Part shown: positions 27,533-52,462 of the stretch, piece by piece
Numbering within the stretch: the first letter of the stretch is position 1
Layout of the letters: each line of letters starts with the position of its first letter
Origin: Macrobrachium rosenbergii
Lineage: Eukaryota; Arthropoda; Malacostraca; Decapoda; Palaemonidae
Direction of reading: 5' to 3'
Assembly: GCF_040412425.1 (NCBI RefSeq)
Contig: NC_089781.1
Span: 49,937,227 to 50,001,226, forward strand
Length of the DNA: 64,000 bases
Notes under the pieces: generated by a model
Database searches by the model: none
Seen by the model: only the letters and a program-made list of their open reading frames with translations
What the model was told of the DNA's origin: nothing
Program-made: the position numbers and the translations under genes

Positions 27533-27755
27533 GCTCGCTCCTTTGATCCCTTACTGGAGTGGGGTACTCGCATCAGTACGCACTTTCGTGCGCCGTGTGG
27601 TTCCGCTAGTGACACTGGTGGGGTACGCCGACGAGAGTCAGCACGCTCAAAAGCTGGTTACAGCGCCGTGTTTAGGCTGCTAAGAGCGATTTGGAGAAAT
27701 CCTGGAGTCAAGACTAAGTCGCCATGTCGGTCCGTTAATGGCTCCGGGATACTCC

Positions 27756-27766
27756 GGGGGTCACCA
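27756..27766 (-). promoter_or_regulatory. CsR-3 primer binding site (tRNA-Trp type)
   Basis: The minus strand reads TGGTGACCCCC one base inside the 5' LTR; ten bases match the tRNA-Trp complement TGGTGACCCCG. Confidence 0.75.
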
Positions 27767-27767
27767 C

Positions 27768-28182
27768 TGTAAGGTGTCAAAGAAACGAGCAGGTAAAAGT
27801 TACTGCTACTTTATTACAGATCCAGGCAGTTTATATAGCGGCTGACCCGCGAAAGACAATGGAATTGACTGTGACCTGAGGTCGAAACAATAAACAATAA
27901 TATGCAGTGAACGAGTACAAATTACAATACAAAACATACAGAACTTCAATATGGATACAGTCTTGATGCCTGTGAATGAAGAAACATATGATACACAATG
28001 TGTGACATTTGTATAAATACGTATAAAGTAAATATGGTTAAAAATGCGTGACCTGGCACGTTTTAGGTGTGACTAATTGAGTTTGAAGAAAATGGGAAGT
28101 CACCAAAGAAAACATGCTCAGCGGAGACTTAGTTAATGGCGCCGCTGAAACACTACGCTGGCGTCGATGTGGTGACTTTACA
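27768..28182 (-). repeat. CsR-3 5' LTR
   Basis: 415 bp, plus-strand start tgtaaggtgtcaaag and end gactttaca, paired with 22992-23412. Confidence 0.94.
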
Positions 28183-28186
28183 GGCC

Positions 28187-29039
28187 CACGGGCTGGGAGC
28201 CTTCTTGCATATGCCTTCTTGGCCTCCTGAAGGCGCTGTGGGGGAAGCCTCTGGAACTTCGCGTGTGTCGGGGGGCCATTTGTCTTGATGTGATGATACA
28301 TTCCGTGTTTGGCGGGGGCCCTGGACACCTGATGAAGCTCGGGTTTGAAAACTTTCGGGAATTCCTTCAGGAGGGAGCCATACTGGTGGGGCGCAACGGA
28401 ATAAATTGTGGGCTCCCTGGGGCCCGGCGACAAGGGCAGGGACTGGCAGGACTCGGTGTCCAGCAAGCCCTTGCGGCCGACATTGACTGCCAGTCCGAAG
28501 TGGGCAAGGAAGTCCGCACCCAGGAGCAGGGTCCTAACGTCTGCGACAATGAATTTCCACCTGTACCTCCGGCCAAGGATGGAGAACAACAGGAGCCTGG
28601 TGCCATGCCATAGGAGAGGTCGAGGGTGCTGGCAGCTCTCTCAGAGACTGGCAGGGAGCAGGTCTCGGCGAGAGTGGTTTTTAACTCCTGGGAGGTGGCG
28701 GGGGCTCGACGTTGTCATTAAGCATGGGGCGATCTTCTTGTATATTTCCTCCAGGAGGGTGTTGATGACGATGTCCGCCTTCAACACCTCGTCGGTCAGG
28801 CCTACCACCCTGAATTGCCCCTTGACTCTGTAGAGCCAGGATGCTGCGTTCTGATGGGTGAATGGCAGCAGCCTTATGCTGAGAGCCACCCTTGGTTAGT
28901 CCATCAGGGTGGTCATCACGCGGGGAGCAGGCACCGGCGTGGAGGAGTGCGTGGGAGGGGGTTGAGCAAGGGAGACATCTGCCCCCGAGAAGTTCATGGT
29001 AATTTGTATGTGGTTGGGGATGTCTGTATCCATGCTCAT
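28187..29039 (-). pseudogene. CsR-2 gag/protease/RT, 5' part, deleted
   Basis: ATG at 29039 starts MSMDTDIPNH; an in-frame TAA follows in the N-terminal region before LLPFTHQNAASWLYRVKGQF. Most of gag, including the zinc motif and the catalytic start of protease, is missing. At about 28640-28589 the sequence jumps to the protease C-terminal half (LLLGADFLAHFG) and then to the RT N-terminal region, stopping at the CsR-3 insertion. Confidence 0.85.
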
Positions 29040-29259
29040 TCCGTGCTCTCACTTGGAGTGTGAGGGAACACTCGTGTCAATACACGCTTGGGAGCGTGCC
29101 ATGTGGGTCTGCTAATGACGCCGGTGATTTGCTGATGAGGGTCAGTAACCCCCGAGTGCTTTGTTAGAGCGCTGTAGTTAGTCCATTAGGGGCGTGGGTT
29201 GTTCATTGGGCCAAGACTAAGTCACAGTTTGGGTCCGTTAATGGCTCCGGGAACCACCC

Positions 29260-29270
29260 CGGGGTCACCA
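29260..29270 (-). promoter_or_regulatory. CsR-2 primer binding site (tRNA-Trp type)
   Basis: The minus strand reads TGGTGACCCCG one base inside the 5' LTR, an 11-base match to the complement of the tRNA-Trp 3' end. Confidence 0.75.
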
Positions 29271-29271
29271 C

Positions 29272-29601
29272 CATGAGAGAGGTGCGAAATAATGAGCAGA
29301 AAGACAAGTACTGCTGGTTTATTGATGAAGCGACCTGCTTATAAAGCGGTGTACGGTCAAACTATTTCTCTACAGAAAACAGAACAGGTACATACAGAAA
29401 ACATAATGATTAACAATGACTGGTTAGACAGAAAAATACTCCTTTACATATACATACTGCAAGGTCAAATGAACAGATAATAAATATATAATTCATAATA
29501 ATGATAATAATATTGTGTCCGTCCGACCCTATGTCGCACGTGAAGGCATCGCAGAAAACGGGATGTTCATTACAGAGAACACGTTGAGCGGGGACTTTAC
29601 A
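29272..29601 (-). repeat. CsR-2 5' LTR
   Basis: Paired with 20116-20468. The terminal dinucleotide at 29272 is CA instead of TG and the copy is about 23 bp shorter. Confidence 0.9.
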
Positions 29602-30479
29602 TGTACGTCAAAACACTTTTTATATAAAATTCTTGGTATAATAGGAAGTCATTAAGAATGAGAGTGATCCTGCAAGTGAAACACAAGCTGGAGTTGCGAG
29701 TGAGACTGGAATGGCCCAGGAACTTAACAGTTTTGACTGGTCATGATGAAGGAAAACTATGAAAAGGTAGTTGACCGGGCATACAGATAGCCGACTAGGC
29801 AAGCAGATGAAGAGCTAATGAGGGATAGTTGACCAGTCATGTCGATGAGGGTTAATGTTGGGTAGACCGAACCAGCGTTCTCGGTAGCCACTGGTAGACC
29901 CAGTCAGTGTTGCCACGCCACTAAGAGCTTTTTCCCTAGGCGAAAGGTGAATTTCCTCTACGCAGCAAATGCAATAATAGGATAAATGAAAATGAAGTAT
30001 TGCATATTAGGTTCAGTTCATATTGAAAATAAACTTTCCAAATTTTAAGTGCAGAAAAATGAACTCAATTAAAGAAATACGTACGAAAATTTAATGTATT
30101 TATAGCAAATTAAAATAAATGGAAAATTATTTTATTACATAAACATTGATTCAAAACTAAGATTTAAGAATTACTCATAGAATTTTGTTTACTTTGAAGC
30201 GAAAAAACAGATGTTACAAGAAAAAATATATGTGTATATTGGGTTTATAATAAATGTAAATAGATTTTAGATTGTCTTATTGCAAAAATCATAGATGTAA
30301 CAACAGAAGTGCCTTTAATCAACGAGAAAGGAATAAGGGAATCTACTCAAATAGCCAATGAAAATACATTTCTAAGTCAAACGTTATTGCATTTATAGGA
30401 GACATACAGTAAATAAATGCCAAATTACTCTACTACAAAAAAACCATTGATGTAATAAAATAAAAAATCCTTTAATCAC
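29602..30479. other. AT-rich sequence, probably 3' flank of the hAT relic
   Basis: No ORF of note. It includes an 11-bp sequence GAACCAGCGTT at 29869-29879 that recurs in inverted orientation at 43384-43394. A CAGTGTTGCC sequence at 29905 looks like a hAT terminus but was not confirmed. Confidence 0.35.
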
Positions 30480-31601
30480 TGAGAATTTCATCAGCTTCAT
30501 TGTCTGTGTATCTTTCAAGGTATCTTGGCCTTGCACTCTTATACTGTATATTATAGCGCTTATGATAGAAGAATTTGTCTCAAAATGTGAGAGTAATGCC
30601 TCGCTCGCTTTCTTTTTTTTTTTTTGCTATTGTTGAAAGTCTGTTTCTTAGTTTGTTTTTATAATTATTAGTAGGTTTCGAAAATGTTCTTTCAATCTAT
30701 GCCGTGTTTTAAGCAAAGCAGTAAGCTTTAACATAAACGTTGCCATTTCATCATATAGAGGCACCTTCTTCAGCCCCTTCAAAAACTCAAGAATTCACCC
30801 CTTTTCATGTCTTCGTCACCTTAGATTAATTTCCATTGTCTGTCTACAGTTTGCAAGTGTACTTCAAGGAGAAGTCGGGGTAGTTTCCGAAACAAAATAG
30901 CTGCTGAAATTAGAGCAGCGTGGTTTCTTAAAATGACCTCATGATCTACGTCATAGAATAAAATTATTCTTTTCAGAATCTCGGGACAAGCAATCTTGTA
31001 CTAATTTCTGTAACGTGTTAGAAAACTTTCCTTTTCATGAGGCTTTACTTTTACCAAGGTTTCACTGGCAAGCATGCCAGGATAGACTTTATCCAATTGT
31101 ATCCAGTTTGATTCGTTTCCAAACATCAGTATATCGAAGTTAATAAATTCCATTTTCAGAAAATTTGAACTAAACAGCCTAAGGACTCAACCTCTGGTAG
31201 CAGCATATGTAATTTTAAGCTGTTAGACTGAAACATTCCATTCAGGTTAACCAAATCACCCAAAACAAAACTCATAAATTCAATTGTTGCCTTGACATAT
31301 GGAGACTGAATAGCATGTAATATTCTCTCTGCTCGTATGGACTTATTTCATAAGTTTCCCCTGTAAAGTATAATTCCAATGCTGGCCGTTGTACAAGAAT
31401 TATTACGTTTACCGCATTGTGCTATTGATAATCACCTTGTGTGACTGACATGGTTTCAGCAATTTACGAGGCTCACAATCTACAAAGTGCTGGCATTCGT
31501 CATAATTTTTTTGCCGATTAGGTGAAAGCTAAAATAGTTATACATATCATGTATTAGCTACTCTGCTGTCTTAGAATATGCCTCACAAGCATGTCCAGCA
31601 A
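30480..31601 (-). pseudogene. hAT-family transposase relic, C-terminal part
   Basis: The minus strand, with several frame changes, gives the block order of hAT-type transposases: YDECQHFVDCEPRKLLKPCQ, then ALELYFTGETYE, RAERILHAIQSPYVKATIEF, FVLGDLVNLNGMFQSNSLK, LHMLLPEVE, and near the end NKLRNRLSTIA and an acidic tail. These match the middle and C-terminal dimerisation region. The N-terminal continuation is found at 43395-43716 on the other strand, separated by the Mag-5 insertion and an inversion. The enzyme would have cut and pasted hAT elements; this copy is dead. Confidence 0.6.
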
Positions 31602-31606
31602 CTATA

Positions 31607-31769
31607 TGTAGGATGGTTGATTGTGTGTGATGTATGTTGTCAGGAGGAGAGCGGAATTGGCGCCAATGTTTCCCGCGCGTCTGCACCTTACTTGCAGTCA
31701 TGCCTCTGTACTGATTGGACGTGTAATAAAGCACTGGAGTGTCCCACTGGTTTCCTTCTGCCTCTAACA
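31607..31769 (+). repeat. Mag-5 5' LTR
   Basis: 163 bp, TGTAGGATGG ... CTCTAACA, with an AATAAA at about 31726. It differs at only two positions from the reverse complement of 43717-43879. Confidence 0.95.
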
Positions 31770-31787
31770 TGGCGCAGTGAGTAGGAT
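31770..31787 (+). promoter_or_regulatory. Mag-5 primer binding site
   Basis: TGGCGCAGTGAGTAGGAT immediately follows the LTR. The TGG start fits a tRNA CCA end; the tRNA species was not assigned. Confidence 0.65.
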
Positions 31788-31804
31788 GTTGTAAAAGGAT
31801 AAGG

Positions 31805-32878
31805 ATGTCTACACCAGGGAGACCGTCTTTCACGACAAGGAGGGCACGACGATCCTCCAGGGGTGCCCACAGTACTCCCGTTGGAGTGGCGCCAAGATCA
31901 CCAGCTCTTCAGCATGTGGTTGCCGAAGGGCGAGATGCGTTGCAAGCCCTTAATGACCGCTTGGCTACAATGGCGAGTGGCTTGTGTCTACAGAGCAGTC
32001 CCAGGGCCCCAGCCCCACCACTACCAGAGAAGTGTGCTTTGGAAATGTCGTCGACCTCCTTCAGGACTTGGAAACGGTCCATGACACAGTGGCTTAGGCT
32101 ATATAAGCTTCAACCAACGGATGCAGTTCAACACATTAGGCTTCACTGCACCCCAGAGTTGCAACGTACACTGGATGCCAGGTATAGTGATGCACAGTGG
32201 GCTAATTTGTCTCCAGAAGGGGCTTTGGATGCTATAGGGGCCATGGTTCTGCGTGCTTCAAACCAGGCCGTGCATTGGGCTGAGTTTTTTGTGTATATGC
32301 AAGGACGTGAGGAGTCAATTAGTGAATATTTTGCAAAGTGCTCTCAAAAAGCCATGGATTGTGGCTTCCAGTGTCCTAGCTGTCATAGCGATTTGTCCGA
32401 ATATATGCTTATTAGGAAGCTTATGGTAGGTCTAAGGGATGAGATATTGAAAAGAGACCTCTATAGGTCATGTGATTCCATTTGTAGTGTAGATGCCTTA
32501 AGGGCAGTGTGTGCGACATATGAGGCAGCCCGCAAAGATGCTTCCATGCCCCAGCATGACACATGGCATCAAGAGCCACGTGCGGCCGATGTGGAGACAG
32601 ACCCCAGCCCCCCTGAGTGTGCAGCGGTGAAGAGTGGTGAGAGGTCCTCAGTTTCCATCAATGCTCGTATGTGTGGGAACTGTGGAGTGCAGCATGAGCC
32701 AAGGAAGGTCTTGTGCCCGGCAAGAAATAGTGTTTGTCATGGCTGTCAAAAAATTGGCCACTTGAAACGGTTCTGTAGGAGCAAGAAGAAGATGGTGAGT
32801 GATGCCCCTGCTTCGTCAGTAACACTGGGAGCGGTCACCGCTGGGTACAACCCAGTGTGCAGCCTACTATACAAGTGA
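31805..32878 (+). CDS. Mag-5 gag polyprotein, intact
   Basis: A complete 357-residue ORF from ATG 31805, 35 bp after the LTR. The N-terminus is basic and Ser/Arg-rich. A capsid-like helical region covers about residues 80-240 (FRTWKRSMTQWLRLY, GREESISEYFAKCSQKA). Two zinc knuckles lie near the C-terminus: an irregular one (CGNCGVQHEPRKVLC) and a canonical CCHC, CHGCQKIGHLKRFC, followed by a basic SKKK tail. Gag assembles the particle and binds the element RNA. The protease frame overlaps its end in the -1 register. It is the only undamaged retroelement ORF in the window besides CsR-3 pol. Confidence 0.93.
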   Translation: MSTPGRPSFTTRRARRSSRGAHSTPVGVAPRSPALQHVVAEGRDALQALNDRLATMASGLCLQSSPRAPAPPLPEKCALEMSSTSFRTWKRSMTQWLRLYKLQPTDAVQHIRLHCTPELQRTLDARYSDAQWANLSPEGALDAIGAMVLRASNQAVHWAEFFVYMQGREESISEYFAKCSQKAMDCGFQCPSCHSDLSEYMLIRKLMVGLRDEILKRDLYRSCDSICSVDALRAVCATYEAARKDASMPQHDTWHQEPRAADVETDPSPPECAAVKSGERSSVSINARMCGNCGVQHEPRKVLCPARNSVCHGCQKIGHLKRFCRSKKKMVSDAPASSVTLGAVTAGYNPVCSLLYK

Positions 32879-35243
32879 TAGTGTCCTCATCAGTGCATGG
32901 GCCTAGGCCTAAGGGTCACAAGCCTGTACGGGCTGTGGTAGACACAGGGGCCCAAGTGTGTGTTGCAGGCCCCACTTTGCTATCGACCCTCATTGAAAGA
33001 CCTGCCCTTTCACAAAACCACAGGGGCCTACATGATGTTGCCAATGTTCGATTGGAGTGTATGGGGACTGCCCCTCTTCGCATTCAGTACGGTGCCAGGA
33101 CAACCGTCCAAGAAGTGTATTTTATCAAGTCTGCAAGGTCTTGCTTCCTTTCATTGGCTGCTTGTAAGGACCTTGGCCTCGTGCCCCAGTCCTTTCCCCA
33201 CCACCTACCAGTGTCAGCGAGCCTCGCACTGGAGCATGAGGTCCCCATACCCATTGGGCCATCCCTGCCCAAGCCCTCATCCATGCCCTTTCCACCAGTG
33301 GAGGAGAACGTCCCAAAGTTGGAGCAGTGGCTCTTGCGCCATTTTTCATCATCAACTTTCAATACAGAGAGGGAGCCCCTCCCAGTCATGGAGGGCAAGC
33401 CGCACCATATTCACCTACTGCCGGGTGCAACCCCCTATGCATGCCACACCCCAGCATCAGTGCCAGCCAAAGCATTGGGAGTCAGAAGTGAAGAAGCAGT
33501 TGGACCAGGACATCAAGAAGGGCATCATTGAGGAGGTACCCACTGGTGAAGCAACAGAATGGTGTGCGAGGATGGTCATTGTTGCCAAGAAGTCAGGTCA
33601 GCCCCGCCGCACTGTGGACTTTCAACGCCTTAATGCCTCCTGCAGGAGAGAGACGCATCACACCCCTGCTCCTTTCGACATGATCTCTGGGGTGCCTTTA
33701 CATTCCTTCAAGACAGTGGCAGATGCGCATTGGGGCTTCCACCAGGTGGAGTTAGATGAAGAGAGCCGCAGACTCACAACCTTTATCACACCCTGGGGGC
33801 ATTACCGGTACAGAAGAACACCCATGGGACACTGTTCAGCTTCAGATGCCTACACCAAGAGGTTTGATGACGCCATCAAGGACATCCCCCAAAAACACAA
33901 ATGTGTGGACGATACTCTTCTGTATGACAACAGCGTTGAGGAGGCCTTCTGGCACACCTATAATTTCTTGGACACGTGTGCTAAAAAAGGGCATAACCCT
34001 CAAGCCAGAGAAATTCAGTTTCTGCCAAGAGAAGTGAACTTCGTCGATTCCAGCTGGGATGGGATTCCTACAGGCCCACAGAGGAGAGTCTAGCTGCCAT
34101 ACGGAGATTCCCTATGCCAGACAACCCCTCTGTCACTGACATCAGGTCATGGTATGGCTTTGTCAACCAGTTGGCACCCTTCCTCGCCACTGCCCCGCTG
34201 ATGGAACCCTTTAGAGACCTCCTGAAGAAGTCTACAAGCAAGAATGTGTACTGGGATAGCAACCTACAAGAGAGATTCCGCCAAGCACAGGAGGCCATAT
34301 GCAAGCTGGCCAAGGATGGGCTGGTATACTATGACAAATCCCGACCTACAGCGTCCCTAACAGATTGGAGCAGGGATGGGATTGGGTTTGTCATCCTGCA
34401 GCAGTACTGTGCTTGTGCCTCGGCTGATGCCCCATTTTGCTGCAAGGGTGGGTGGCGTATTGCCTTATGTGGGAGCCGCCATTTGTCGCAGGCTGAAGCT
34501 GGGTATGCTGCTGTTGAGGGAGAAGCCTTAGCTGTCACATGGTTTCTCAAGAAGGCCAGGCTACTCCTGTTGGGCTGCCCCAACTTACTGATCGTGACTG
34601 ATCACCGCCTGCTGGTCAAGCTCCTGGGTGATAGAGAGCTGAAGGATATACTAAACCCAAGACTCTTCCGTCTCAAGGAGAAGACCCTACAATACAGGTT
34701 CCAAGTAAGATACTTGCCAGGAAAGAGGAATTGCGCTGCTGACTTCTTATCACGCTTCCCTGCTCTCCATTAAGCAACCAGATGACAAGGATTCTGAACT
34801 TGAAGAGGATATGACTGCTGCCCTTGTCGCTGCTTCGCCACCGCCTCTTGAGCAAGAATGCCTCATACTGGATGAGGAGAGGGTCAAAGAAGCAGCCTCT
34901 AAAGACCCTGTGTACCAGCTGCTGGCAGCTAAAGTTGCAGTAAATGACTGGCGCCCTCAGAAGGCACAGGAGGTGGCCTGCCTACGTCAGTTTTACTCAG
35001 TTAGGGACAGGTTATCTATGGTAGAAGACCTGATAGTCTACACTTACGAACAAGGATGCCCACGTCTGCTCATCCCAGAGGAACTTCGCCGTCAAGTCAT
35101 TACAGGCCTTCATGCAGGACATCAGGGGGTAGACTCCATGCTCCGCAGGGCTAGACAATCGGTTTACTGGCCAGGGATGGAAGGCGACCTGCAGAGCCAC
35201 AGGGATGGATGTGCCTCTTGTGATACGCCACATGCTTGGCAAC
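32857..35243 (+). pseudogene. Mag-5 pol: protease, RT, RNase H, integrase N-terminus; broken
   Basis: Protease with AVVDTGAQVCVAG (32857-33531 frame). A frameshift near 33460 leads to RT with WCARMVIVAKKSGQPRRTVDF and the CVDDTLLYD box near 33900. A second shift near 34100 leads to RNase H (LTDWSRDGIGF, VTDHRLL, CAADFLSRF), and a third near 34770 leads to the integrase zinc domain (HAGHQGVDSML ... CASC). The gene stops after CDTPHA at 35243, where unrelated TIR-element sequence begins. The catalytic integrase core is on the opposite strand at 44190-45123. Confidence 0.9.
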
Positions 35244-35793
35244 CCAACAGCGTGCACAGTAGTGTATTTTGGCTCCTCCTTTGGTGGGGATGCACAGTAG
35301 TGTATTTTGGCTCCCTTTTTTTCCTTTTTGTTATTGTTCGCACAATAATAAAAAGAATAAAAGTTCTTCTTGTAACTGTTCTCTAATAATGCTACTGTAA
35401 ATGCTTTTTGTACATTTTCAAGGTTATTACAAAAAGGTATTTTCATGACACATGACGCTGCTGTTGCATCTGTCAGCACAGGGTGTAACTAAGTTGGGCA
35501 TAAATTGTCATGCCTTCACAGACATCACCATCCTGTAAAAACCGTTAAATGTGGGTGTGGCCTGAATCATCGTGTATGACTATGCACGTTCGTAATCTCA
35601 TCTCAGTGTGGGCACTGCTCCCATAAATGTTCATTACGTATGATGTCGTGGTGTCAGAATTAGCTGATTTTTCTTATTTTCTGAGGCCCAAGACCCGCAA
35701 CTGATGCTGATCTGTCGCCAACCTCGTCATAATGAGCAAATTACGATGGTCGCAGTCTTGAATCGCCAATGTGTGATGCCACCATAAGCCTTA
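35240..35793. mobile_element. TIR-element fragment (family X), left-truncated
   Basis: Matches the right-hand part of the full-length copy at 40902-41743: it shares cttggcaaccc, agtgtattttggctccc, and the right terminal repeat (atgagcaaattacgatgg, cttgaatcgccaatgtg) ending gatgccacca. It begins exactly where Mag-5 integrase is interrupted, so its left boundary is the inversion breakpoint rather than a transposon end. Confidence 0.75.
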
Positions 35794-36863
<1,070 letters not shown>

Positions 36864-37492
36864 GTGTAAGGACTGGGGTATGAGTGACATACTGGCTGGG
36901 TGTTTACTGGTTTATTGGTTGTTCCTTACTGAGATAAATGTACAGAATCTTCGATGTTATTGACGCGTGCGAGCGGTAATGTAGCGTCTATACACAGACA
37001 GGTAAAACAGAGATAAAAGGTTCAGACATCTCTGTTTGTCGGCAGACAAACAGATGGCGATATCAAGAGACATGATTAACATACAGTGATGAAACATACA
37101 TCAATGGAAAGGCCAGGAAATTCTACATATGGCCAATTGCTTGAGATTCAAGACAGATTAATGGATACAATGCAGTAGCATAATATATGAAATGGAGAGA
37201 CATTTGGCATCTTCACAAACAGAAACACACATACAGTTTGATACAGAAGATTCGTTGGAACATTATGAGTACATGATTAGAATGCTTGCATGGCAATGCA
37301 AGTAGTGGTGATTGTACATACATTAAGACAACAATGCTTAGGAGAAACAGACGGAAATATTGTATGGTTGAAATCGCGTTCCTGTAGAGAAAGAAAACGA
37401 GACGCTTGCTTTGTCCTGTCCACTTTGATGATGACGATTGATGAACACACGAACACACACGTGTTTGGAAGAGGCAGCATCAGGCTCTTACA
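36864..37492 (-). repeat. CsR-4 3' LTR
   Basis: 629 bp, plus-strand start tgtaaggactggggt and end ggctcttaca; closely matches 40110-40740. Confidence 0.95.
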
Positions 37493-37542
37493 AGTACACT
37501 TGTAAGAGCCCGACGCTGCCTCTTCCAAACACGTGTGTGTTC
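37451..37542. repeat. Snap-back inverted LTR terminus in CsR-4
   Basis: The last ~42 bp of the 3' LTR (37451-37492) face an inverted copy at 37501-37542 across an 8-nt spacer. The inverted copy matches the 5' LTR terminus exactly (gcgtcggg), while the adjacent 3' LTR differs at two sites (gcatcagg). The inverted copy is joined directly to RNase H coding sequence. Confidence 0.92.
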
Positions 37543-39643
37543 ATGAGGATTGTGAAGGGTGTCCCTTCCAGGAGGAACTTGAAGTGCTGGACTGCACGGT
37601 ACATCGCGCAGAGTTCCCTGTCGAAGGTGCTGTAGCGGGTCTCTGCGGGGTTGAACTTCTTGCTGAAGAAGGCGATGGGCTGGGGGCTGCCGTTGATGAC
37701 CTGCTCCAGGACAGCACCACAGGTGACGTTGCTGGCGTCCATTGTCAGCTGGAGGGGGGGCTCTGGGGTCGTGGTGTGCCAAGGCAGTTGCCTCGGCGAG
37801 GGCGGCCTTCGTCAGGGTCCCCACGACAGGGACTTCGGTTGACCTTTGAGCACTTCCGTTAGGGGGACCGTGGTGTGCGTGATCCCGGGGATGAACTGCC
37901 TGTAGAAATTCACCATTCCGAGGAACTCCTGGACGGCCTTGACGGAGGTGGGGGTGGGGAACCTGGTGACGGCTGAGACCTTGGATGTGAGTGGGCGGAC
38001 GCCTGCCGGGGATATCTCATTTCCCAGGAAGTCAGCTTTCTGGACGCCGAAGGTGCATTTGTCGAAACGCACGATGAGGCCGTTCTCCTGGAGGCACTGC
38101 AGTACTGCCCGGATGTGTTTTTGGTGTTCGTTGAGAGACCTGGAAAATATGAGGATGTCATCAACGTAGCAGACGCAGAACTTCAGGTCCCCGAGGATGC
38201 TGTCCATGAGCTGCTGGAAGGTCGCCCCGGCGTTCCTCAATCCGAAGGTGGAGAAGGCGAACACGTAGGACCCGAACAGTGTGATGATGGCGGTCTTTGG
38301 TTTATTCTCTGGTGTGACAGGTACCTGAAAATATGATTTTAGAAGGTCTAATATAGTGAATATTTTGGCTCCGTGAAAGGAGGCCGTGAGGTCCTGCATG
38401 TTCGGCAAGGGGTAGTGGTCAGGCTCCGTTGCGATGTTGAGACGCCTGTAGTCACCGCAGGGTCTCCAGGAGCCATCCTGTTTCTGCACCATGCGGAGGG
38501 GGGAGGCCCACGGACTGGAGGCCTTTTTGCAGATTCCCATTCGCTCCATCTCTGCGAATGCGTTTTTGGCCTCCTGAAGGCGGCATGGGGGAAGCCTCCG
38601 GAACTTCGCATGTGTAGGGGGCCCCTTAGTCGTTATGTGATGGTAGATGCCATGTTTGGCTGGGGCCCCGGGGACTTGGCAGAGCTCGGGCTTGAATACT
38701 TCAGGAAACTCCGTCAGCAGCTGTGCATACTGGTGGGGGGCAACGGAGCAGATGGTGGGTGCCTTGGGTCCCGTTGCTAACGGGAGGGACCAGCTGGAGT
38801 CGGTGTCGAGGAGGCGTTTACGCCCGACGTCGACTGCCAGCCCGAAGTGTGCGAGGAAGTCAGCACCCAGGAGCAAGGTCCCTACGTCCGCGACGATGAA
38901 GTCCCAGGAATAACTCCGGCCAAGGATGGAGATCGACAGGGGCGTGGTGCCATAGGAGAGGATGGGGGATCCGTTGGCGGCCGTCAGGGAGGCGGTCGGA
39001 CCCAGTTCCTGCTTCCAGTCCTCCTTGGATGCTGGTAAGATCGATCTAAAGGCCCCTGTGTCGACCAGCATCATCCTGCCGGAGACGGTGTCGAGGACGT
39101 AGAAGCCTATTGATTCTGGGCCCCTGGGTTTTTCGGTTGCCATGGCGGTCTGTCCTGTTGGCCGCCGCCATCCCCGTTTTTTTGAACGGGCAAATGAGCA
39201 GGGCGGCAGGCAGTTCTGGGTGTCTTTGCCAAACCGCTTGTGGTAGTGGCACAGGCCCGGGGAACCCCACTTGTTGTAGGGTGGTGGTTGCCTCCTGGCG
39301 ACAACGTTGACACCCTTCTCCGTGTCTTCTTCCTGCTGGACGGAGGCGATCGATTTTGTGGGCGCTGTTAGCCGCTGTGTAGCTTTCACGCAGTCCATTA
39401 GGTGCTGCGCCGTTTGGATGAGGACGTCAGGGGCATGGTGTAGGGGTGAGGAATCTGGGTGCAGACCTCCGGGAGGAGCTGGCGAAGGTAGATCTCCCAC
39501 GACAGGCTTATTTCCTGCTGTTTTTTGCTGCCGTCGAAATCTGGGAGTGAGAGGAGGTCCTCGATCATGCTCCATGCATCTACCGCGTTGAGATCATGCC
39601 GCAGGTTGACGGCGAGGTCGATCGCCGAGCGGTCCCCCAACAA
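37543..39643 (-). pseudogene. CsR-4 fused gag-protease-RT with truncated RNase H
   Basis: The 587-codon frame 39575-37812 contains, in order, the CHCC motif (CHYHKRFGKDTQNCLPPC), protease LVDTGAFRSILPAS and LLLGADFLAHFG, and RT with YVDDILIFSRS. Gag and pol share one frame because the slippery site has seven A instead of six. Upstream gag (39643-39398) is in another register. A small deletion near 37812 precedes RNase H (TCGAVLEQVING, TRYSTFDRELCAMYRAV), which ends at TPFTIL; integrase is absent. The catalytic Asp block reads FTILDLLKSYFQ. The gag N-terminus toward 40032 is unlike the sister copies. Confidence 0.9.
39177..39183 (-). other. A7 run that fuses gag and pol in CsR-4
   Basis: Seven A on the minus strand occupy the position of the AAAAAAC slippery site of CsR-3 (six A). 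The extra base removes the need for a -1 shift, giving Ser-Lys-Lys-Arg-Gly in one frame. Confidence 0.8.
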
Positions 39644-40100
39644 GCGAGGATCGATGCGGAAATTGTCTTGCTGACAATTGTAGTTGGCTTGAAGGGCTTG
39701 GGCTAGGGGCAGGTAGGAGGCTGAAGGGCGGCACCGGCCAGCAGGAGCTCGAGGAGGACAGGAGCGGGTTGAAGGGTGACATCGGATGATCCTTCGGTGG
39801 CCGGCTCGAGGGCTGAAGGATGACGGCGGCTGATCCTTGGTAGCCAGCTCGAGAGGGGTGGCAGCAGGCTGAAGGATGACTTGGCTGGTCCTTCGTTGGT
39901 CAGCTCGTCCAGTATGAGTGCGGGGGAGGCCTCAGGTTTCCTGGAGGAGGCGTCCAGGGCTCCGGTGGTGGGGTGGGTCATCTCGGAGGGTCGGACATCT
40001 ACTGAAAACTCAGGAACGGCGGGAAGCAGCAAGGCGGCGAAGGGTCTGTTGGCGCATGGGTCGTCATCTTGGGTCAGCCGGGTCCTTCGGGTTACTCCGT

Positions 40101-40108
40101 GGTCACCA
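40101..40108 (-). promoter_or_regulatory. CsR-4 primer binding site
   Basis: The minus strand reads TGGTGACC one base inside the 5' LTR, followed by ACGGAG, which departs from the tRNA-Trp complement. Confidence 0.65.
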
Positions 40109-40109
40109 G

Positions 40110-40740
40110 TGTAAGGACTGGGGTATGAGTGACATACTGGCTGGGTGTTTACTGGTTTATTGGTTGTTCCTTACTGAGATAAATGTACAGAATCTTCGAT
40201 GTTATTGACGCGTGCGAGCGGTAATGTAGCGTCTATACACAGACAGGTAAAACAGAGATAAAAGGTTCAGACATCTGTGTTTGTCGGCAGACAAACAGAT
40301 GGCGATATCAAGAGACATGATTAACATACAGTGATGAAACATACATCAATGGAAAGGCCAGGAAATTCTACATATGGCCAATTGCTTGAGATTCAAGACA
40401 GATTAATGGATACAATGCAGTAGCATAATATATGTGAAATGGAGAGACATTTGGCATCTTCACAAACAGAAACACACATACAGTTTGATACAGAAGATTC
40501 GTTGGAACATTATGAGTACATGATTAGAATGCTTGCATGGCAATGCAAGTAGTGGTGATTGTACATACATTAAGACAACAATGCTTAGGGAGAAACAGAC
40601 GGAAATATTGTATGGTTGAAATCGCGTTCCTGTAGAGAAAGAAAACGAGACGCTTGCTTTGTCCTGTCCACTTTGATGATGACGATTGATGAACACACGA
40701 ACACACACGTGTTTGGAAGAGGCAGCGTCGGGCTCTTACA
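40110..40740 (-). repeat. CsR-4 5' LTR
   Basis: 631 bp, paired with 36864-37492; ends gcgtcgggctcttaca on the plus strand. Confidence 0.95.
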
Positions 40741-41825
40741 CTGGACTCTATAACAAGTTCTAGGAGTAACTGAAATTAATAAGGCTAAGACACTCATTGC
40801 TCTGAGAGATCAAAGTACACTGACACCCAAAAGCACTTTTTACTAGAGCAAATCAGCCTGAGAAAAAGCAACATCAAGTACATTCCACCAAAGAAGAGTT
40901 TAGCTGGTGTCACACTTCGGCGATTCAAGACTGCAACCATTGTAATTTGCTCACTACGACACAGTTATGCCCTAGGTACGCCCAAATCGGCATGATTCAT
41001 AACTGTGCAACATCCACCAGGCGTCTGGCAAGGCTGCACAACATCCACCAAGCCACGATGACTGTCAAAAGTCGCCATGTAATGCCGCATGGCACAACTG
41101 TGTCATATCATCATGACTGATGAGACGGCGTCGGCATTTGATTACGTCAGATGTAATTAGCAATGTCAACATGTGCCATCCAGTACGACTTATGCCATGT
41201 ACTTGGCAACCCCTCAGCATGCACAGCAGGGATGCGCAGTAGTGTATTTTGGCTCCCTTTTTTCCTTTTTGTTATTGTTCACACAATAATAAAGAGAAAA
41301 AAGGTTCTTCTTGTAACTGCTCTCTAATAATGCTGCTGTTAATGCTTTTTGTACATTTTCAAGGTTATTACAAAAAGGCATTTTCATGACACATGACGCT
41401 GCTGATGCACCTGTCGGCACGGGACGTAACTAAGTCGGGCATAAATCATCATGAATCGTCATGCCTTCACGGACGTTGCTGTCCTGTAAAAACCGTTAAA
41501 TGTGAGCGTGGCCTGAATCATCAGCGACTGTTGTGTATGACTTCACACGTTCGTAATCTCATCTCAACGTGGGCACTGCTGTCATAAATGTTCATCACAT
41601 ATGATGTCATGGTGTCAGAATCAGCTGATTTTTTCTTTTTTGAGGCCTGAGGCTCGCGACTGATGCCGATCAGTCGCCAACCGCGTCGTAATGAGCAAAT
41701 TACTAGGGTCACGGTCTTGAATCACCAATGAGTGACACCGGCATTTGGCTGATCTTCTTACAAAGGTCATCTGCGCAGAGAGGATCCAAGAACTAATCAC
41801 CAATTTGGGAATATGTCTGCTGTAA
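40741..41825 (+). pseudogene. copia-like RNase H C-terminus, interrupted by a TIR element
   Basis: 40741-40901 reads, across frames, NKAKTLIALRDQSTLTPKS and SLRKSNIKYIPPKKSL. After the TIR element, 41744-41825 continues with ADLLTKVICAERIQELITN and a stop. This order (KYIP..., ADLLTK, then a short tail and stop) is the end of Ty1/copia RNase H. The Ser-Leu/Ala-Asp join is restored when the insertion (40902-41743) and one TTT copy are ignored. CsR-4 interrupts the relic on its left. The rest of the copia pol was not found. Confidence 0.55.
40902..41743. mobile_element. Family X TIR element, full-length nonautonomous copy
   Basis: 842 bp with imperfect terminal inverted repeats of about 55-60 bp: AGCTGGTGTCAC...CGATTCAAGACTG at the left and its complement (cagtcttgaatc-type, ...GTGACACCGGCA) at the right. 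The flanks share TTT (40899-40901, 41744-41746), a candidate 3-bp duplication consistent with, but not proof of, a PIF/Harbinger-like origin. There is no transposase ORF. A second, truncated copy is at 35240-35793. Confidence 0.75.
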
Positions 41826-42556
41826 AAGTGCCATTGATTCAGACAATACCTCACTTGGAATTTACACCAAATAATGATTTTATTATTGTCAAATTTGCAA
41901 GTTCATAATTGTCAATTATTTTGCAATGTAAATTTGTAGTTTACTCATTCTTTTACTAATACACATTGTTTGCATATTATACCCATCATTTTTTACTAGT
42001 TTTAAGTGCAGTGTGAGGGTGTCAAATTGCACCTCTCTTTCCTTGTGTTTCTCCCTTTCAGATTTACATTAATCACGTCATGTATATTATATTACCTGTC
42101 TTTATTTCAGATTCTTTGTGTACCTCATCTTATGCATCATTGTACGGCTTTTCTGCCGATATGTATATCTACCTTTTATATGTCATGTAACAAATGTTGT
42201 ACGTATTTTTATGCTTGCTAAAAAGCACAAATCCTGTATGGACGCCGCAGGGGTTCTCGGGTCGCTTGCTATCTTTCAGTCCGCTTTTTGTCTTATAAAC
42301 ACTTGTCGAGAATAATAAAGAATCAGTCTTTCACCTCTGACTTTTCCTTGAAGCCTCATAGCAGCTATACTGTCTATGTCATTGTATTCTCTTTATCATC
42401 TTGTTTTTGTGTACTTACATGTCATTTCGTGTATATAAATATTTGAATTTACTTAACTAGAATATTTTCTTTGTTGTAAACTGTCCATATTTGATGTTTA
42501 AGCAAATAATTTTATTACAGCGTTGTATCATCTTTATCGTGTTATTTTTGTGCGTT
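41826..42556 (+). other. Probable 3' LTR and flank of the copia relic
   Basis: A purine-rich gtgtgaggg precedes tgtcaaattgcacc at about 42020, a plausible polypurine tract and LTR start. An AATAAA with flanking T-rich sequence lies near 42315-42320. The 5' partner is not in the window, so the LTR call rests on position only. Confidence 0.35.
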
Positions 42557-43203
42557 TGTAAGGGACCACATGGCGGTCCTACGGGCACACGTGCGTGTGA
42601 GTCAGCCACGGACAGAACAAGGCAAAGCATCCTGCTTTCTCTCTCTCCCTCCCGTACGTCAGCGGCAATCGCTCAAAGGAATGCAACTTCTACCATACAA
42701 TATTCCTGTCTGTTTCTCTCTGACCATTGTTGTCTCGATTCATGTACAATCACCACTACTTGCATTGCCATGCAAGCATTCTGATCATGTACTCATAATG
42801 TTCCACCGAATCTTCTGTATCAAACTGTATGTATGTTTCTGTTTGTGAAGACGCCAAACGTCTCGCCATTTCACATACAGTATATTATGCTACTGCATTG
42901 TATTCATTAATCTGTCTCGAATCTCATGCAAATGTTCATATGTGGAATTTCCTGGCCTTTTCATTGACATATGTTTTATCATTGTACGTTTATTATGTCT
43001 CTCACAATCGCCATCTGTTTGTCTGTCGACAAGCACAGATGCCCAAAACATAATCTCTGTTTTGCCTTGTCTGTGTGTAGAAACTACTTTGCGGCTCGCA
43101 CCAGCCAATAACAACTTCGAAGATTCTGTACATTCATTCAGTGAGGAACCACTAATAAACTAGACAACACCCAGCCAGTATGTCACTCAACACCTTCCTT
43201 ACA
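42557..43203 (+). repeat. Solo LTR of the CsR-4 family
   Basis: 647 bp, reverse-complementary to the CsR-4 LTRs over most of its length (shares caatattcctgtctgtttct-type and cctggccttttcattgac-type segments), starting TGTAAGGGAC and ending CTTCCTTACA. No internal region is attached. A matching target duplication was not found. It is more diverged from the two CsR-4 LTRs than they are from each other. Confidence 0.85.
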
Positions 43204-43394
43204 TGTTTACACGTCATTTAATGTACTTTAATGTTTGTATGTACTCGATTGGAACATTTTGTTTGTAAAGGCAAAATATTTTTTTTTTCTTTCTTACTCA
43301 AGTTATAACAAAACTGTTCATCAAGGAGAGGTATTAAAACATTAGCCAAAACATATGTGTAAATCTACCACCAGGCATCAGCAAACGCTGGTTC
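43204..43394. other. Short spacer next to the hAT relic
   Basis: AT-rich, no ORF. Ends with aacgctggttc at 43384-43394, the inverted counterpart of 29869-29879. Confidence 0.3.
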
Positions 43395-43716
43395 TGTTGT
43401 GGCATACCAGAATGTAAACAACCACCCCGCCCGAGTTGGCGACAAACTGTAGTGAGTTGGAAAATAAAATGCATAAAGGTAAGACATGTGTTTTTGTTAC
43501 CCCTACTCACGAAGCAACGTAAGGTAGAAAGAATGTAGAAGTCGAATTAACGAGAGAATACCACACTAATATGTAACTGATTTAAGAAATTTAAAATTAA
43601 ACAAATTATAAAAGAGACAAAACTGAGAATCTAATGTTTTAATGGTAGGCTAAAGTTAAAGGACGTTGTGTCTGATTTATTTGTGATGAAATGTTTTTGT
43701 CATACATTTCATATAG
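43395..43716 (+). pseudogene. hAT-family transposase relic, N-terminal side
   Basis: Only the last ~60 bases are clearly coding (SDLFVMKCFCHTFHI), corresponding to the Cys-His-Ser-Phe-His block that precedes HACEAYSKTAE in hAT-like transposases. That next block starts at the other side of Mag-5, at 31601 on the minus strand. The two parts join in frame across the CTATA target site, so this is the same hAT copy as 30480-31601. It is on the plus strand now because the intervening block is inverted. Confidence 0.6.
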
Positions 43717-43879
43717 TGTTAGAGGCAGAAGGAAACCAGTGGGACACTCCAGTGCTTTATTACACGTCCAATCAGTACAGAGGCGTGACTGCAAGTAAGG
43801 TGCAGACGCGCGGGAAACATTGGCGCCAATTCTGCTCTCCTCCTGACAACATACATCACACACAATCAACCATCCTACA
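43717..43879 (-). repeat. Mag-5 3' LTR
   Basis: 163 bp; reverse complement differs at two positions from 31607-31769. The adjoining TATAG (43712-43716) is the complement of the CTATA beside the 5' LTR. Confidence 0.95.
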
Positions 43880-44189
43880 TCCCCCCCCTAAGATTATGGC
43901 ATGGCAGAATGGCAAAATATTAAATGAAAATAATAAGTAAACATGTATTAAATGCATATATATAGACAAAGAAAGCTGTAAAAGGAAGATCCCATAGGAC
44001 AAAAGCAATGGTTAACACTGAGTGTCACAACATACAAGGACATGCATGGCAACAATATATAGTACATGCATAAAATATGTTTGCACAACAGAATTTCTAT
44101 CCAGTTCAACTTACTGAAAACAAAAGATAAAATGAGCTTAAGGGACAACAAAATGTAACTGTACAAGGTGACACAAGCACAAGCATGGG

Positions 44190-45123
44190 TTAACGCTCGA
44201 TATCACCCATGACATACTCGCCCATCCATGAGGGTTGCACTGTGCGCCTTTTTGGACGAGGTGGAGCAGGTTCCAGGCTTGGGGGAATGGCTGAGGACGT
44301 TGGGGGTTGCCGTTTTAGCACTTTCAGGTGCTTCCTGTTTCTAAGTGACACCCGACCGCTTCCATCCAGCCTAATAAGATACTGTCGGTGGCCCTTAGAC
44401 TCCACTACCAACCCAGATCGGTCCCAGGTTTTGGTTACAGGATCCTGCACTCTTACCCTGCAGCCTACAACCAGGGGTAGAAGCTCCCTGGTACCAGTAT
44501 ATGGTGGGGTCTCCTCTTGGGACTCTGCCATTCGTAGCTCCCTCCGCTGAATTATCTCATCCCAGTGTCTCTCCACCTTGTAATGCTGTCTGGGTGTTGG
44601 CACTCCATCTCTGAGCTGCCTGCCGATAGCGAGCTGTGCTGGGGACTTGTCAAACCCCTTAGGGGTGTATTGAGATACTGAAGAATTGCCAGGGATGCCT
44701 TGTTGCAATCGAGGCTGCCTCCTTTGCCTATGTTAGACCTGATGATCCTCTTGGCAGTCTTGACTGCTGCTTCGGCCCTTCCATTAGACTGGGGGTAATG
44801 GGCTGACGACAGGCGTACCGTAACCCCCCATTTTCTGAAGAATGATGTGGTCTCTTCACTAATGAGGTTTGTGCCCCCATATGTCGAGATTAGCTCTGGT
44901 GCTCCCCATCTTGTGAAGTATGTCCTCAAGACTGATATAATTCTTGATGACGTTGTGCCATGTGGGAAGTGTGCCACTTCCAGCCACCCGGTGAGCCTGT
45001 CTGCATAGGCCATGTACATATGGCCCTCCAACTGTAGCATGTCCACCACTGTCGACTGGAATGGGTATTCTGGGGGTGGTGTGAGTACTAATGGTTCAGC
45101 AGGTTGTGATGGAGCATGTACAT
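44190..45123 (-). pseudogene. Mag-5 integrase core and C-terminus
   Basis: The minus strand reads PAEPLVLTPPPEYPFQ, then the DDE core with VVDMLQLEG as first Asp, a second site altered to ISTYGGTNL (Asp replaced by Tyr) and AHYPQSNGRAEAAVKTAK with Glu. A frame change near 44700 leads to the C-terminal region (CRVRVQDPVTKTWDRSGLV, RNRKHLKVL) and an Arg-rich tail ending at 44190. Loss of the second Asp and the frameshift leave it inactive. Confidence 0.88.
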
Positions 45124-46860
45124 CACAATAAATTTTCCTGGGATATATCTGAATTCTGGGGCAAATTCTAGCACACTAATGAACCACCTACTGAACTTCA
45201 CGTTATTTGTAAAAGTTCTCGTCTTAAACAAATCACAAATTGGTTTGTGATCAGTAAGTACATTGACTTTATGTCCTAAGATTATGTGTCTAAATTTCTT
45301 TAGACCCCAGTATAATGCTAAACATTCTCTTTCTATTGTACTATAATTTCTCTCTGCAGCATTCAAAACTCTACTGGCATAATATACTGCTCTCATTCTT
45401 GTTTTGTCCTTTTGTAATAATACAGCCCCTAGCCCGGTACTTGAGGCCTCACAGGCTAAGTAAAAGTCTTTGGAGAAATCTGGGTAGAAGAGTACAGGAT
45501 TCCTTGTCATTTTACTCTTTAGTGTTTGGAAGGCTGTCTCTTGTTCTTTGTTTCACTCATATTTGACATCTTTCTTTGTTAATTCTGTTAATGGTTTGGC
45601 TATTGTAGCAAAGCCTTTAATGAAAGGTCTATAGTAGCCCACCATTCCTAGGAATCGTCTCAATGCTTTCAAATTTGTAGGAGCTGGATATTCAACTATT
45701 GCCTTTATCTTGCCGGCTTCACTGATTACATGTCCTAAGTATTCCAAAGATTTCATTAAGAATTGACATTTCTTTAATTTGATTTTTAATCCTGCTCTTC
45801 TTAATCTTTCTAGGAATATTTCTAAAGTTTTGAGGTGACTTTCTAAATCTTTGCTAAAAATGATAACATCATCTCAGTAAACTGCAACATTTTCTATATC
45901 CCCTAATATTTGAAGCATTAATCTAACAAACGTTAAAGGAGTCGAAGTGAGTCCAAATGGCATGACTTCAAATTGCAAGTGTTCCTTATGTGTGCTGAAG
46001 GCTGTGTATGGTTTCGACTCTTCGTCTAAAGGTACTTGCCAGTATCCACTAAGTAAATCTAAAGATGAAAATATCCTTGCACCTCCTAATTGAGCTAACA
46101 TATCTTGAATCACTGGCATTGGCATTCTATCGGGGATGGTGTTGGAATTTAACTTTCTATAATCTATCACAAGTCTCCAATTTCCATCTTTCTTTGGAAC
46201 AAGTAGTAATGGAGAATTATATGGAGATTTAGAAGGAATGACTGCCCCATCTTTCTTCATTTCTTCTATCAAATTATCAGCTATGGGTCTTTGGCTTATT
46301 GGTAATCTGTAATTAGGAATAAAGAATGGTTTCGTTCCATCATCTAATACAATTTTATGTCTTAGGACATTTGTTCTACCTAATTTATCTCCTTCTATAG
46401 CTATTACATCTCTGTATTTTTCTAATACTTGAATTAATCTATCTTTCTTTTCTGGAAAATTTGCTTTACTCACTTCTTTTCTTAATTCAGATGTTTGACC
46501 AGTTACAGAGAAAAATGCTTTTTCTTTTAATGTTAGTAATGGATTGTTAATAGGTATTCCTTTGCAAAAGACAATGCCTGCATATAGTATTAGTTTGTTA
46601 TCTGAGTAGTTTTGGACATAAACTTCACAAGTATCACCCTTTATGTGGACTAAAGAATTATCCATCCTGACAAATTCTGGTAACTCTTCATTTAGTAAAA
46701 GACCGTCTTTAACTTCTATCTTTTCTTTTCCCCTTAAATGTATTTTTGTTAAACACTTTGGAAGCAAAATTACCTGTCTGTTTAGTATAAATTGTACTTT
46801 ATTATCATCAGCAGTGTTTACACAACATACTTCTTCATTTTTTATCTCTGCAAAGTAACA
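45124..46860 (-). pseudogene. Gyp-6 RT / RNase H
   Basis: 46767-45874 carries LVPKKDGNWRLVIDYRKLN, FSSLDLLSGYWQVPL and LQFEVMPFGLTSTPLTF. The catalytic box is Tyr-stop-Asp-Asp: a TGA at 45874-45876 replaces the Leu of YLDD. 45756-45553 holds the connection domain (SLEYLGHVISEAGK, LRRFLGMVGYYRPF). RNase H (LACEASSTGLGAVLLQ, first Asp replaced by Glu; TIERECLALYWGLKKF; VLTDHKPICDLF) runs to 45130. Confidence 0.9.
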
Positions 46861-46876
46861 ATGTTTTGCATCTATA

Positions 46877-47290
46877 CTACACCTGTGAGGGAAAGAATCT
46901 GTCTTCTAGAACTATAAAACTTTCAACAGTTTTATGTGACGAAAGGTCTATTTCTAAGTTCACATTTCCTAAACTTTTAATCTGTTTACCCGCTACTCCT
47001 TTTATTATTTTGCTTTGACCTTGAATTAGTGTTTCTTTAACGCCTAAGTAATTTGTTAATGTATGTTTATCAATTATGCCTACAGTACTACCTGAACCCA
47101 TAAGGACAGTACATAATTTATTCTGTATTGGAACTTTAATGATAGGTAAATCCTTTCTGATTATTTCTTCTTCATCCATGGAAAATACAACTTCTTTACT
47201 CTGCAATATGGATAGTGCGGATGAACCTTCACTTCTCCTTTTTGCTAATTCTTCTACTCTTAATTTATCTTCTTGAAGGGACTTTCTTGT
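46877..47290 (-). pseudogene. Gyp-6 aspartic protease with mutated active site
   Basis: The active-site triad reads LMGSGSTVGII, with Gly in place of the catalytic Asp that Gyp-7 retains (LMDSGSTVNII). The remaining fold elements (IKGVAGKQIKSLGNVNLEIDL, SFIVLEDRFF) are present. It would be inactive even without the surrounding stops. Confidence 0.85.
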
Positions 47291-47402
47291 TGTATTCTGT
47301 GTAGGTATAAATTGTCATTGACTAGAAGACTTATATGTTGAGCGGTTACTGCTTAATTCACTATTTCTTTATTTCCTTCTTGTGTTCTAAACCAGCAGTT
47401 CT

Positions 47403-47484
47403 TAGAAAACCTAGAATCTGCATTGTAGAAAGTAGGACATTTATGTCCTACTTTCTACAACCCGTGCAGATTCTAGGTTTTCTA
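47403..47484. repeat. Palindromic insertion in the Gyp-6 gag zinc region
   Basis: Left arm 47403-47440 and right arm 47443-47484 are inverted copies (tagaaaacctagaatctg / cagattctaggttttcta; tagaaagtaggacat / atgtcctactttcta) with a 2-nt spacer and a small 4-nt difference inside. Gyp-7 has a single copy here (59398-59450). The inverted copy introduces a stop after CTGCRK in the second zinc knuckle. Confidence 0.9.
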
Positions 47485-48494
47485 CACTCGTTTGTAAAAT
47501 GATTTGTATACCCACAGTTTTCACAGGCTGTCTTTGGTCTCGCCCCTTGAGCGGAATAGTTCACTTGGGTTGAATTATTTGTGTTTGAGTTTTGACCATA
47601 TCTATAAGGTTTGTGAGGTCCACTCTTTGTTAGATTGTTTCTTCCTTTCTGATCTGGATTCCATTTTCTTTTAGTATTTTGGGCATATTTCCCTTGGAAG
47701 GTATTTGGTCTATTTCCTACTTGTCTGGAATTATCATAGAACTTATTCATTTTAAAAGTAGGGTTATTATTTCTGACTTTCCTTTCATTTTGTGGTTCTG
47801 TTGTTCCCACAAATTCCTTGGATAGATTTATCTCTTTCCTTTGGATTTCTTCTCTCATTGTCTTCAATGTTTGAAGGCTTGTTTTCTTGGGATCAAGTTT
47901 TATTTTTCTGAAAGCCTTCTTTTCCTCTTCTCCAAGGGCATTATATATTGTTCCAAATGACAAGTAATTTAAAACATGTCTTAGCTCAGCTAAGTTATGG
48001 GCACTTTCCCCAAACTGAGTCTTATCTCCTATAGTAATGCCTGTCTTCATTAAGTCTTCTGTTATTTTCTCTATTGCATTCTCCACGCTTGCATACAAAT
48101 TAGCAACTGTTTTATATTGTGGGTTAAGAAATCTAGTTATGTTATATAAACTGTCAGTCTTATTTACTGGTTCCCAGAGTGATAAACAAATTTCTTTAAA
48201 TTCTACATAGTTATTAAGTTTGCTAAAACTTGTGGAATTCAAAGTTTTATGTGCGTCTCCATGTTCTGAGCTGACTAGCAACAAGGCTTCATTTATTTTA
48301 GCTCTTTCATCTGTTATTCCCCCTGAAATTATACGACTATCTGCATCTGCTAGCCAATGATTTACAGTATTTCCTTGCACTACAGCGGAGTGGGAATTTA
48401 TTCTGGAAATTCGGCTTCATCTAATTGTCGATGGTCTTAAATTATATTGTGAATGTCTAATAGTGTTCAGTAGTTCATCAAACACTCTTTGCAT
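47448..48494 (-). pseudogene. Gyp-6 gag
   Basis: Begins at ATG 48494 (MQRVFDELLNT), has an early stop before the main frame (48380-47448, 310 codons). The capsid-like region matches Gyp-7 (VNHWLADADS, LNSTSFSKLNNY, LYNITRFLN). The nucleocapsid has CENCGYTNHFTNEC and the start of a second knuckle, cut by the palindrome. Compared with Gyp-7 it lacks about 73 residues of Asn-rich sequence after VQGN. Confidence 0.88.
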
Positions 48495-49485
48495 GGCCAC
48501 ACACAAAAAAAATATTCAATCAGAGTACATCAGTTATAAAAAAAAGTTTGTTATATTGTACCAAAATTAAAAGAATTTGTCAAATTGTCACAGCAAAAAC
48601 AATTAAAATCTCTACTGAGTTCAAGTGCACAAGTAAAACCTTCTTCAGTACACAAAAGAAATTCTTATATGAAACTGGGCATCATATCATCAAAAATTCA
48701 TCACAATGAGTACACAATTTTATATATAACTCCTCAAACAATCATCACCAACCGAGTGAGAAAAAAATACTAATTCCCTATCTAAATTATTTACTAAATA
48801 ATTAATTATCATAGAGAGAGTAATACTGGTATTTATGCAAAAGGAATTTTATTCACTAGAGAGAGTTTTCTTAATTTTTCAATCTTATGGAAAGATGTAA
48901 AAAAAAATATATCTTCACTTATTCACATATTAAGAGAGAGGGCGAACAGTATATTCATTTCTTGCTGACTTACTGTGGTTGTTATGATGACACCGCTAAG
49001 TTGTTGTAATTTCGTTGAGTTTTTCGCCGCCTTATCCTCGTAAAAATTTCTCTACATCTGCGTTGTTTTTCGCCGTGTTTCCGCCTTCGGAATCTTGTTG
49101 AAAATTCTCTGCGTTGTTTTTCAATCACTTCGATGAAACTTCGCAAACACTGGGCTTATTATGGTTGTCGGAGTCTTGTTCAATTTGTTGACGGTAACAG
49201 TTCTAAATGTGTTTTTGCTTCTTCGGGACGCACTAATACTGTTTTTATTCACACTGGATCTCGACTTTCTCTTGTAAGATTCTATTTCTTCATATAACGT
49301 TTGGTTGCTGCCAAAAAAATCTAAGTTCGTTTTGTAGAATTTCGTTTCACTGTAACTTAAATAATTGCACTGATAATTTCATTAATGTTTATTTGTTTTG
49401 TCTCACCTTCTGGATCCATTTAAGCTTCCACCATTTGTAAAGCCTTTTCTTCTCTGTTGTATGTTTTTAGTCTTTCACTTCTTAC
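48495..49485 (-). other. Gyp-6 leader / 5' untranslated region
   Basis: Noncoding and diverged, but it shares segments with the Gyp-7 leader (ggatccagaagg near 49410; aacagtatt...gaagaagcaaaa near 49225; gtgcaatta.ttaag near 49360). No primer site was recognised with confidence. Confidence 0.5.
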
Positions 49486-50316: not shown

Positions 50317-50382
<66 letters not shown>

Positions 50383-50889: not shown

Positions 50890-50893
50890 AATG

Positions 50894-51039: not shown

Positions 51040-51170
51040 CCCTTATCCCTAGAAAAGCAATAATATTCCAGTTTAAAACATCAGACAATTAAATAATCAA
51101 TACTTCTTCCAAAATATGTTACAAATATGAAAACAAAACAACATGATAAATACAGCATATTTGTATATAT

Positions 51171-52440: not shown

Positions 52441-52462
52441 CTTAGCCAAAACACCAGCAATA

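Follow-up and report, generated by a model that had tools for sequence, protein, structure and literature searches.

Inversions that arise by staggered breaks followed by end joining have been described in Drosophila (PMC3355041, PMC5080602). In the D. mojavensis and D. subobscura inversions treated in the relevant parts of those papers, sequence from an original breakpoint is found duplicated, and inverted, at the ends of the flipped segment, and PMC5080602 includes, in the same parts, cases in which the duplication affected just one of the original breakpoints. The rearrangement analyzed here, from the prawn Macrobrachium rosenbergii, likewise duplicates sequence at the ends of a flipped segment and, like the latter fly cases, does so for only one original breakpoint. 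It differs in scale: the fly duplications, as given in the same parts of those papers, are of kilobase or gene-fragment size and the inversions chromosomal, whereas the prawn duplication measures 7 bp and the 9.9-kb segment lies inside repeats.

The window (the whole stretch of DNA that was analyzed, 64,000 bases, zero N) consists largely of repeats, among which retrotransposon fragments are abundant. Such a repeat-on-repeat region is to be expected, since repeats make up 57.54% and Gypsy-like LTR elements 5.89% of the published M. rosenbergii assembly by the figures quoted from PMC11373640. The segment at issue is as follows.

35225..45128, unstranded: putative inverted segment, ~9.9 kb, from the combined evidence of the junctions, the LTRs, the hAT-like reading and the relatives

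Very probably, this is a two-break inversion of ~9.9 kb in which one break was staggered and filled in, the other was accompanied by sequence loss, and the ends were joined without repeat-mediated recombination. It is an ordinary kind of genome rearrangement and a clear example of it. There is no indication of a function; what remains is the fossil of a rearrangement amid repeat-rich prawn DNA.

A split retrotransposon and its hAT-like target

A Ty3/Gypsy-type LTR retrotransposon occurs in the window as two parts on opposite strands.

31602..31606, plus strand: target-site duplication CTATA, left copy, directly outside the 5' LTR
31607-35224, plus strand: 5' part of the split retrotransposon (LTR, RT, RNase H, integrase zinc-binding)
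31607..31769, plus strand: 5' LTR, 161/163 bases identical to 43717-43879
31770..35224, plus strand: 5' internal part with RT, RNase H and integrase zinc-binding domain; several frame changes among its open frames
43712..43716, minus strand: target-site duplication, right copy (CTATA on the minus strand), directly outside the 3' LTR
43717-45128, minus strand: 3' part of the split retrotransposon (integrase core region, LTR)
43717..43879, minus strand: 3' LTR, 161/163 bases identical to 31607-31769, in inverted orientation
43880..45128, minus strand: 3' internal part with the integrase core region and a polypurine-like G-run before the LTR

As in other LTR retrotransposons, the LTRs start with TG and end with CA (TGTAGG...CTAACA), and a short target duplication, CTATA in the orientation of the element, lies on both sides; this word accounted for 0.079% of 200,000 5-mers drawn at random from the window. 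The left half contains RT_RNaseH and Integrase_H2C2 domains (Pfam), and RVT_1 just missed its cutoff there (E 1.7e-6, 28.3 bits against 29.6); an upstream open frame within 31770..35224, to which no Pfam family was assigned, is presumably gag. In the right half, rve fell under its cutoff (E 0.0022, 18.6 bits against 32.6), and we assign this half to the integrase core despite that score because prawn copies match it, with 97/99 residues identical to M. rosenbergii P0025. The left integrase piece is identical to M. rosenbergii P0122 at 145/150 residues, and these two matches fit M. rosenbergii or a near relative as the host. Across the two halves the domains follow the order RT, RNase H, integrase (RVT_1 and rve both being sub-cutoff). 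Among the matches listed, many of the named relatives of the integrase pieces come from freshwater prawns and other decapods; a scan of viral contigs with the integrase piece gave no match. Decapod Ty3/Gypsy elements, several of them annotated as “K02A2.6-like” (Macrobrachium, Homarus, Eriocheir, Scylla), share RNase H and the zinc domain and core of the integrase with the copy in the window; unlike them, this copy is split, with several changes of open frame.

The sequence into which this element was inserted resembles a hAT transposase gene and is likewise found in two places.

30714..31606, minus strand: hAT-like transposase pseudogene, the part that stayed put (downstream part of the gene), located by tblastn with P0156-P0160; stops and a frame change
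43653..43716, plus strand: hAT pseudogene, the part carried within the flipped segment, located by tblastn with P0157-P0159 (whole-window scores of 45.4-46.6 bits)

When the flanks are joined without the retrotransposon, an open stretch runs over the join, and this flank-only reading (CFCHTFHIVAGHACEA) aligns without gaps to P0157 (CFCHTFHLVAGHACEA). Used as a 315-residue query, it identified five related hAT-like proteins (P0156-P0160, M. rosenbergii being the source of one), whose alignments cover 51-67% of its length at 34-52% identity; next to these, the copy in the window is a degraded pseudogene, and no tblastn match in the window was found for the remaining 5' part of the gene beyond ~43653. 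Three of the five proteins (P0157, P0158 and P0159) cover the join. Each matches 43653-43716 on the plus strand (81-86% over 21 residues), with the whole-window match extending 2 bases into the LTR, and each continues, beginning with the last residue of that match, in the minus-strand piece that starts at 31606; this one-residue overlap is exactly what a 5-bp target duplication predicts. The recognizable hAT piece within the flipped segment is short (~64 bp), and its 45.4-46.6 bits compare with a best score of 30.0 bits in 200 windows shuffled in blocks of 2 bases. P0156 and P0160 match the downstream part only. It is through P0160 (aligned to 31296-30714, minus strand), and not through a scan of the window copy, that a hAT dimerization domain is recognized (Dimer_Tnp_hAT, 22.2 bits against a cutoff of 21.4); a Pfam scan of P0157-P0159 returned no family.

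An earlier note on this DNA had described LTRs differing at only 2 of 163 bases, CTATA outside both of them, and a hAT frame that becomes continuous once one side is flipped, and each of these observations was reproduced here, the last by the alignment of P0157-P0159 across both flanks. Because the hAT reading is continuous across both flanks, the two LTR ends are best read as those of one insertion, with the sequence past the 3' LTR reversed. Two separate insertions of one family, oppositely oriented and both truncated, would be in keeping with the presence in the window of other truncated copies (E2 and X1, below), but they would have had to produce an identical target duplication, flanks that yield one continuous hAT reading, and truncations that fall at the same codons and overlap by 7 bp. 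Given the hAT continuity and the target duplication, we reject this explanation, whose probability is next to nil.

The two junctions

At its left end the flipped segment begins with a repeat, X1, and beyond its right end lies a second retrotransposon, E2; one further copy of each was available in the window for comparison.

35218..35224, plus strand: TTGTGAT, left copy, 7 bp common to both junctions
35225..35795, plus strand: repeat X1, first sequence inside the flipped segment, without the 5' part present in X2
~40903-41753: repeat X2, with inverted repeats close to both ends (80% over 64 bases)
45122..45128, minus strand: TTGTGAT, right copy, 7 bp common to both junctions
45129..48416, minus strand: second retrotransposon, E2, truncated where its RNase H region ends
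~57638-62255, plus strand: second E2 copy, continuing past the point at which E2 is cut and followable only to the end of the window

The breakpoints lie at 35224/35225 and 45128/45129. Seven relatives, chosen from 154 retrotransposon proteins (among the matches listed), were aligned to both halves of the split element, and five of them, all Macrobrachium copies (P0122, P0024, P0025, P0033 and P0002), span the break. In each of the five, the end of the left piece lies one residue past the start of the right piece; this two-residue overlap means that the CD codons, at the DNA level TTGTGAT, occur at both junctions. As for the other two relatives, P0123 (M. rosenbergii) is frame-shifted just before the break and reads through it in another frame (PLVMYMLHH), which is consistent with a single TTGTGAT at that place, and P0129 matches the left piece at 86/145 residues with no matching stretch beyond the break. 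The motifs of both sides were found in one frame in 57/154 retrotransposon proteins by a looser check and in 12/121 by a stricter pattern (both among the matches listed). Together, the identity of the LTRs, the matching CTATA, the continuity of the hAT reading and the five relatives that span the break support a single retrotransposon insertion that, as far as sequence comparison can tell, was split, its distal half being flipped together with its flank.

At the aligned positions, X2 and the second E2 copy (one comparison copy each) have no TTGTGAT. For this reason the 7 bp would most simply be a duplication of the retrotransposon's own sequence, and the idea that they belong to X or E2 was rejected. 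What the junctions display is a once-single sequence of 7 bp duplicated in inverted orientation at both of them, as expected of a staggered break. A weak similarity of the last bases of the left half to X2 upstream of its match (ATGTGCC) was judged likely to be due to chance.

The claim of the earlier note that the two halves break at the same integrase codons holds as to place; the halves do not merely abut, however, since TTGTGAT is present in both. An inversion following insertion into hAT was likewise proposed there, at about 35240-45123, and is supported here; it is its breakpoints that required revision: the left half ends at 35224 rather than 35243, since X1 occupies 35225 onward, and the right half starts at 45128 rather than 45123, E2 ending at 45129. 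That note missed the 7 bp at both junctions as well as the truncation of both far-breakpoint sequences and, with it, a deletion that accompanied or preceded the event.

Explanations of the junctions other than a break-and-join event need to be weighed here. An assembly error, in which a wrong-orientation join in a repeat-rich genome was made for an animal without the inversion, would fit a region that is mostly repeats and agrees with the occurrence of five junction words in 0/160 proteins (among the matches listed, and in translated open frames only). Mis-joins are expected in long identical repeats, whereas both junctions here are base-exact inside elements and have only 7 bp in common; moreover, the window is free of N, and a 7-bp duplication is not readily created by a mis-join. 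We consider an assembly error rather unlikely. Transposase- and integrase-type enzymes leave short duplications at both junctions, as seen here, and TTGTGAT could then be the target duplication of a transposase-driven (alternative) transposition or of a self-integration of the retrotransposon. Yet, judged by one comparison copy each, the stretches of X1 and E2 next to TTGTGAT seem to come from inside these elements and do not resemble transposon or LTR ends, so that this origin is disfavored as very unlikely. It is also quite unlikely that the 7 bp are the footprint of a fixed-stagger enzyme, for instance a transposase or integrase working on aberrant substrates; if they were, small inversions would be a recurrent by-product of mobile elements in prawn genomes and not a matter of random breakage.

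Truncation at the far breakpoint and a probable order of events

Since X1 and E2 are both truncated where they would once have met, the two-break inversion would either have included a deletion at that site or have been preceded by one, with the break falling at the existing join; loss during the inversion is preferred, as it needs fewer coincidences. Neither the missing 5' part of X1 nor the missing 3' part of E2 matched any other DNA in the window, except for X's own inverted repeats. At the protein level, the part of E2 beyond the break showed 24-31% identity to other Gypsy-type integrase regions in the window, and these matches are taken as other families.

The absence of a 5' part from X1 and of a 3' part from E2, together with a hAT 5' part beyond ~43653 that was not found in the window, could also point to a more intricate history for this inversion, one that was originally larger or involved at least three breaks, with another deletion, earlier or later, placing X1 and E2 at the junctions. 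The same facts follow in fewer steps from one event in which sequence was lost at a single breakpoint. We regard the more complex history as possible but not favored, and the likelihood granted to it overlaps with that of the best explanation, of which it is a variant.

X looks like a non-coding DNA transposon, because X2 has inverted repeats near its ends. Within X1, two partial repeats 38 bases apart (35249-35328) begin 25 bases from the left junction, and X2 is without ~25 bases at the corresponding place.

The favored two-break inversion would have proceeded as follows: (i) the Ty3/Gypsy-type retrotransposon entered a hAT-like transposase gene or pseudogene, generating the 5-bp target duplication that is still visible; (ii) at some later time, two breaks occurred ~9.9 kb apart, one in the integrase region of the retrotransposon, whose ends may have been staggered by ~7 bases and filled in, and the other between E2 and X1, with sequence lost from both, perhaps at that very time; and (iii) end joining over 0-1 bp of matching sequence presumably put the intervening piece back in the reverse orientation. 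The inversion could in principle also stem from recombination between inverted copies of a repeat, as many inverted repeat pairs exist in the window. The outer flanks (20001-35224 and 45129-60000), however, had no blastn homology to each other at E 0.01, and the longest repeat seen in common between the junctions was 7 bp. From this lack of homology between the outer flanks, and from junction sequences that are internal to X1 and E2, we find neither repeat-mediated recombination, which we disfavor as highly improbable, nor a transposase-driven inversion to be supported. The two-break inversion thus read puts a base-exact order of events on record, namely, a retrotransposon moving into a hAT copy and then an inversion that duplicated 7 bp at one break and lost sequence at the other, and the insertion provides internal markers of the original order. 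Nested cases of this type could allow small inversions in repeat-rich crustacean genomes to be counted from a single assembly.

The region at 45129-62255 is roughly mirror-symmetric: E2 and another repeat each lie on either side, oppositely oriented. Its E2-related segments (45129-49436 and 57248-62255, in opposite orientation) are about 73-91% alike depending on the segment, and within it lies an inverted pair of ~1.5 kb (50894-52425 and 55622-57152) that is 98.4% identical. Inverted repeats are prone to breakage, and the mirror symmetry may for that reason have raised the likelihood of the second break.

Other elements in the window

The flipped segment also carries a separate Gypsy-type element.

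36865..40740, minus strand: separate Gypsy-type element inside the flipped segment, spanning both LTRs (98.6% identical) and bordered by CTGG at either end; its ends and CTGG were identified by eye

That this element has kept both LTRs and its bordering CTGG speaks for the two-break reading. Its internal part is only ~2.6 kb, and a related LTR lies at 42677-43203 in the orientation opposite to that of the element's own. The open frame of E2 at 47454-48416 was hit by the coronavirus S1 family of Pfam (E 0.00043, 19.6 bits, cutoff 25), almost certainly by chance. Several related Gypsy-type elements, ~67-75% alike by blastn, occupy 15000-28700 on the minus strand; one is 83% like the element at 37548-39635, and one contains a 901-residue stop-to-stop frame at 23386-26088.
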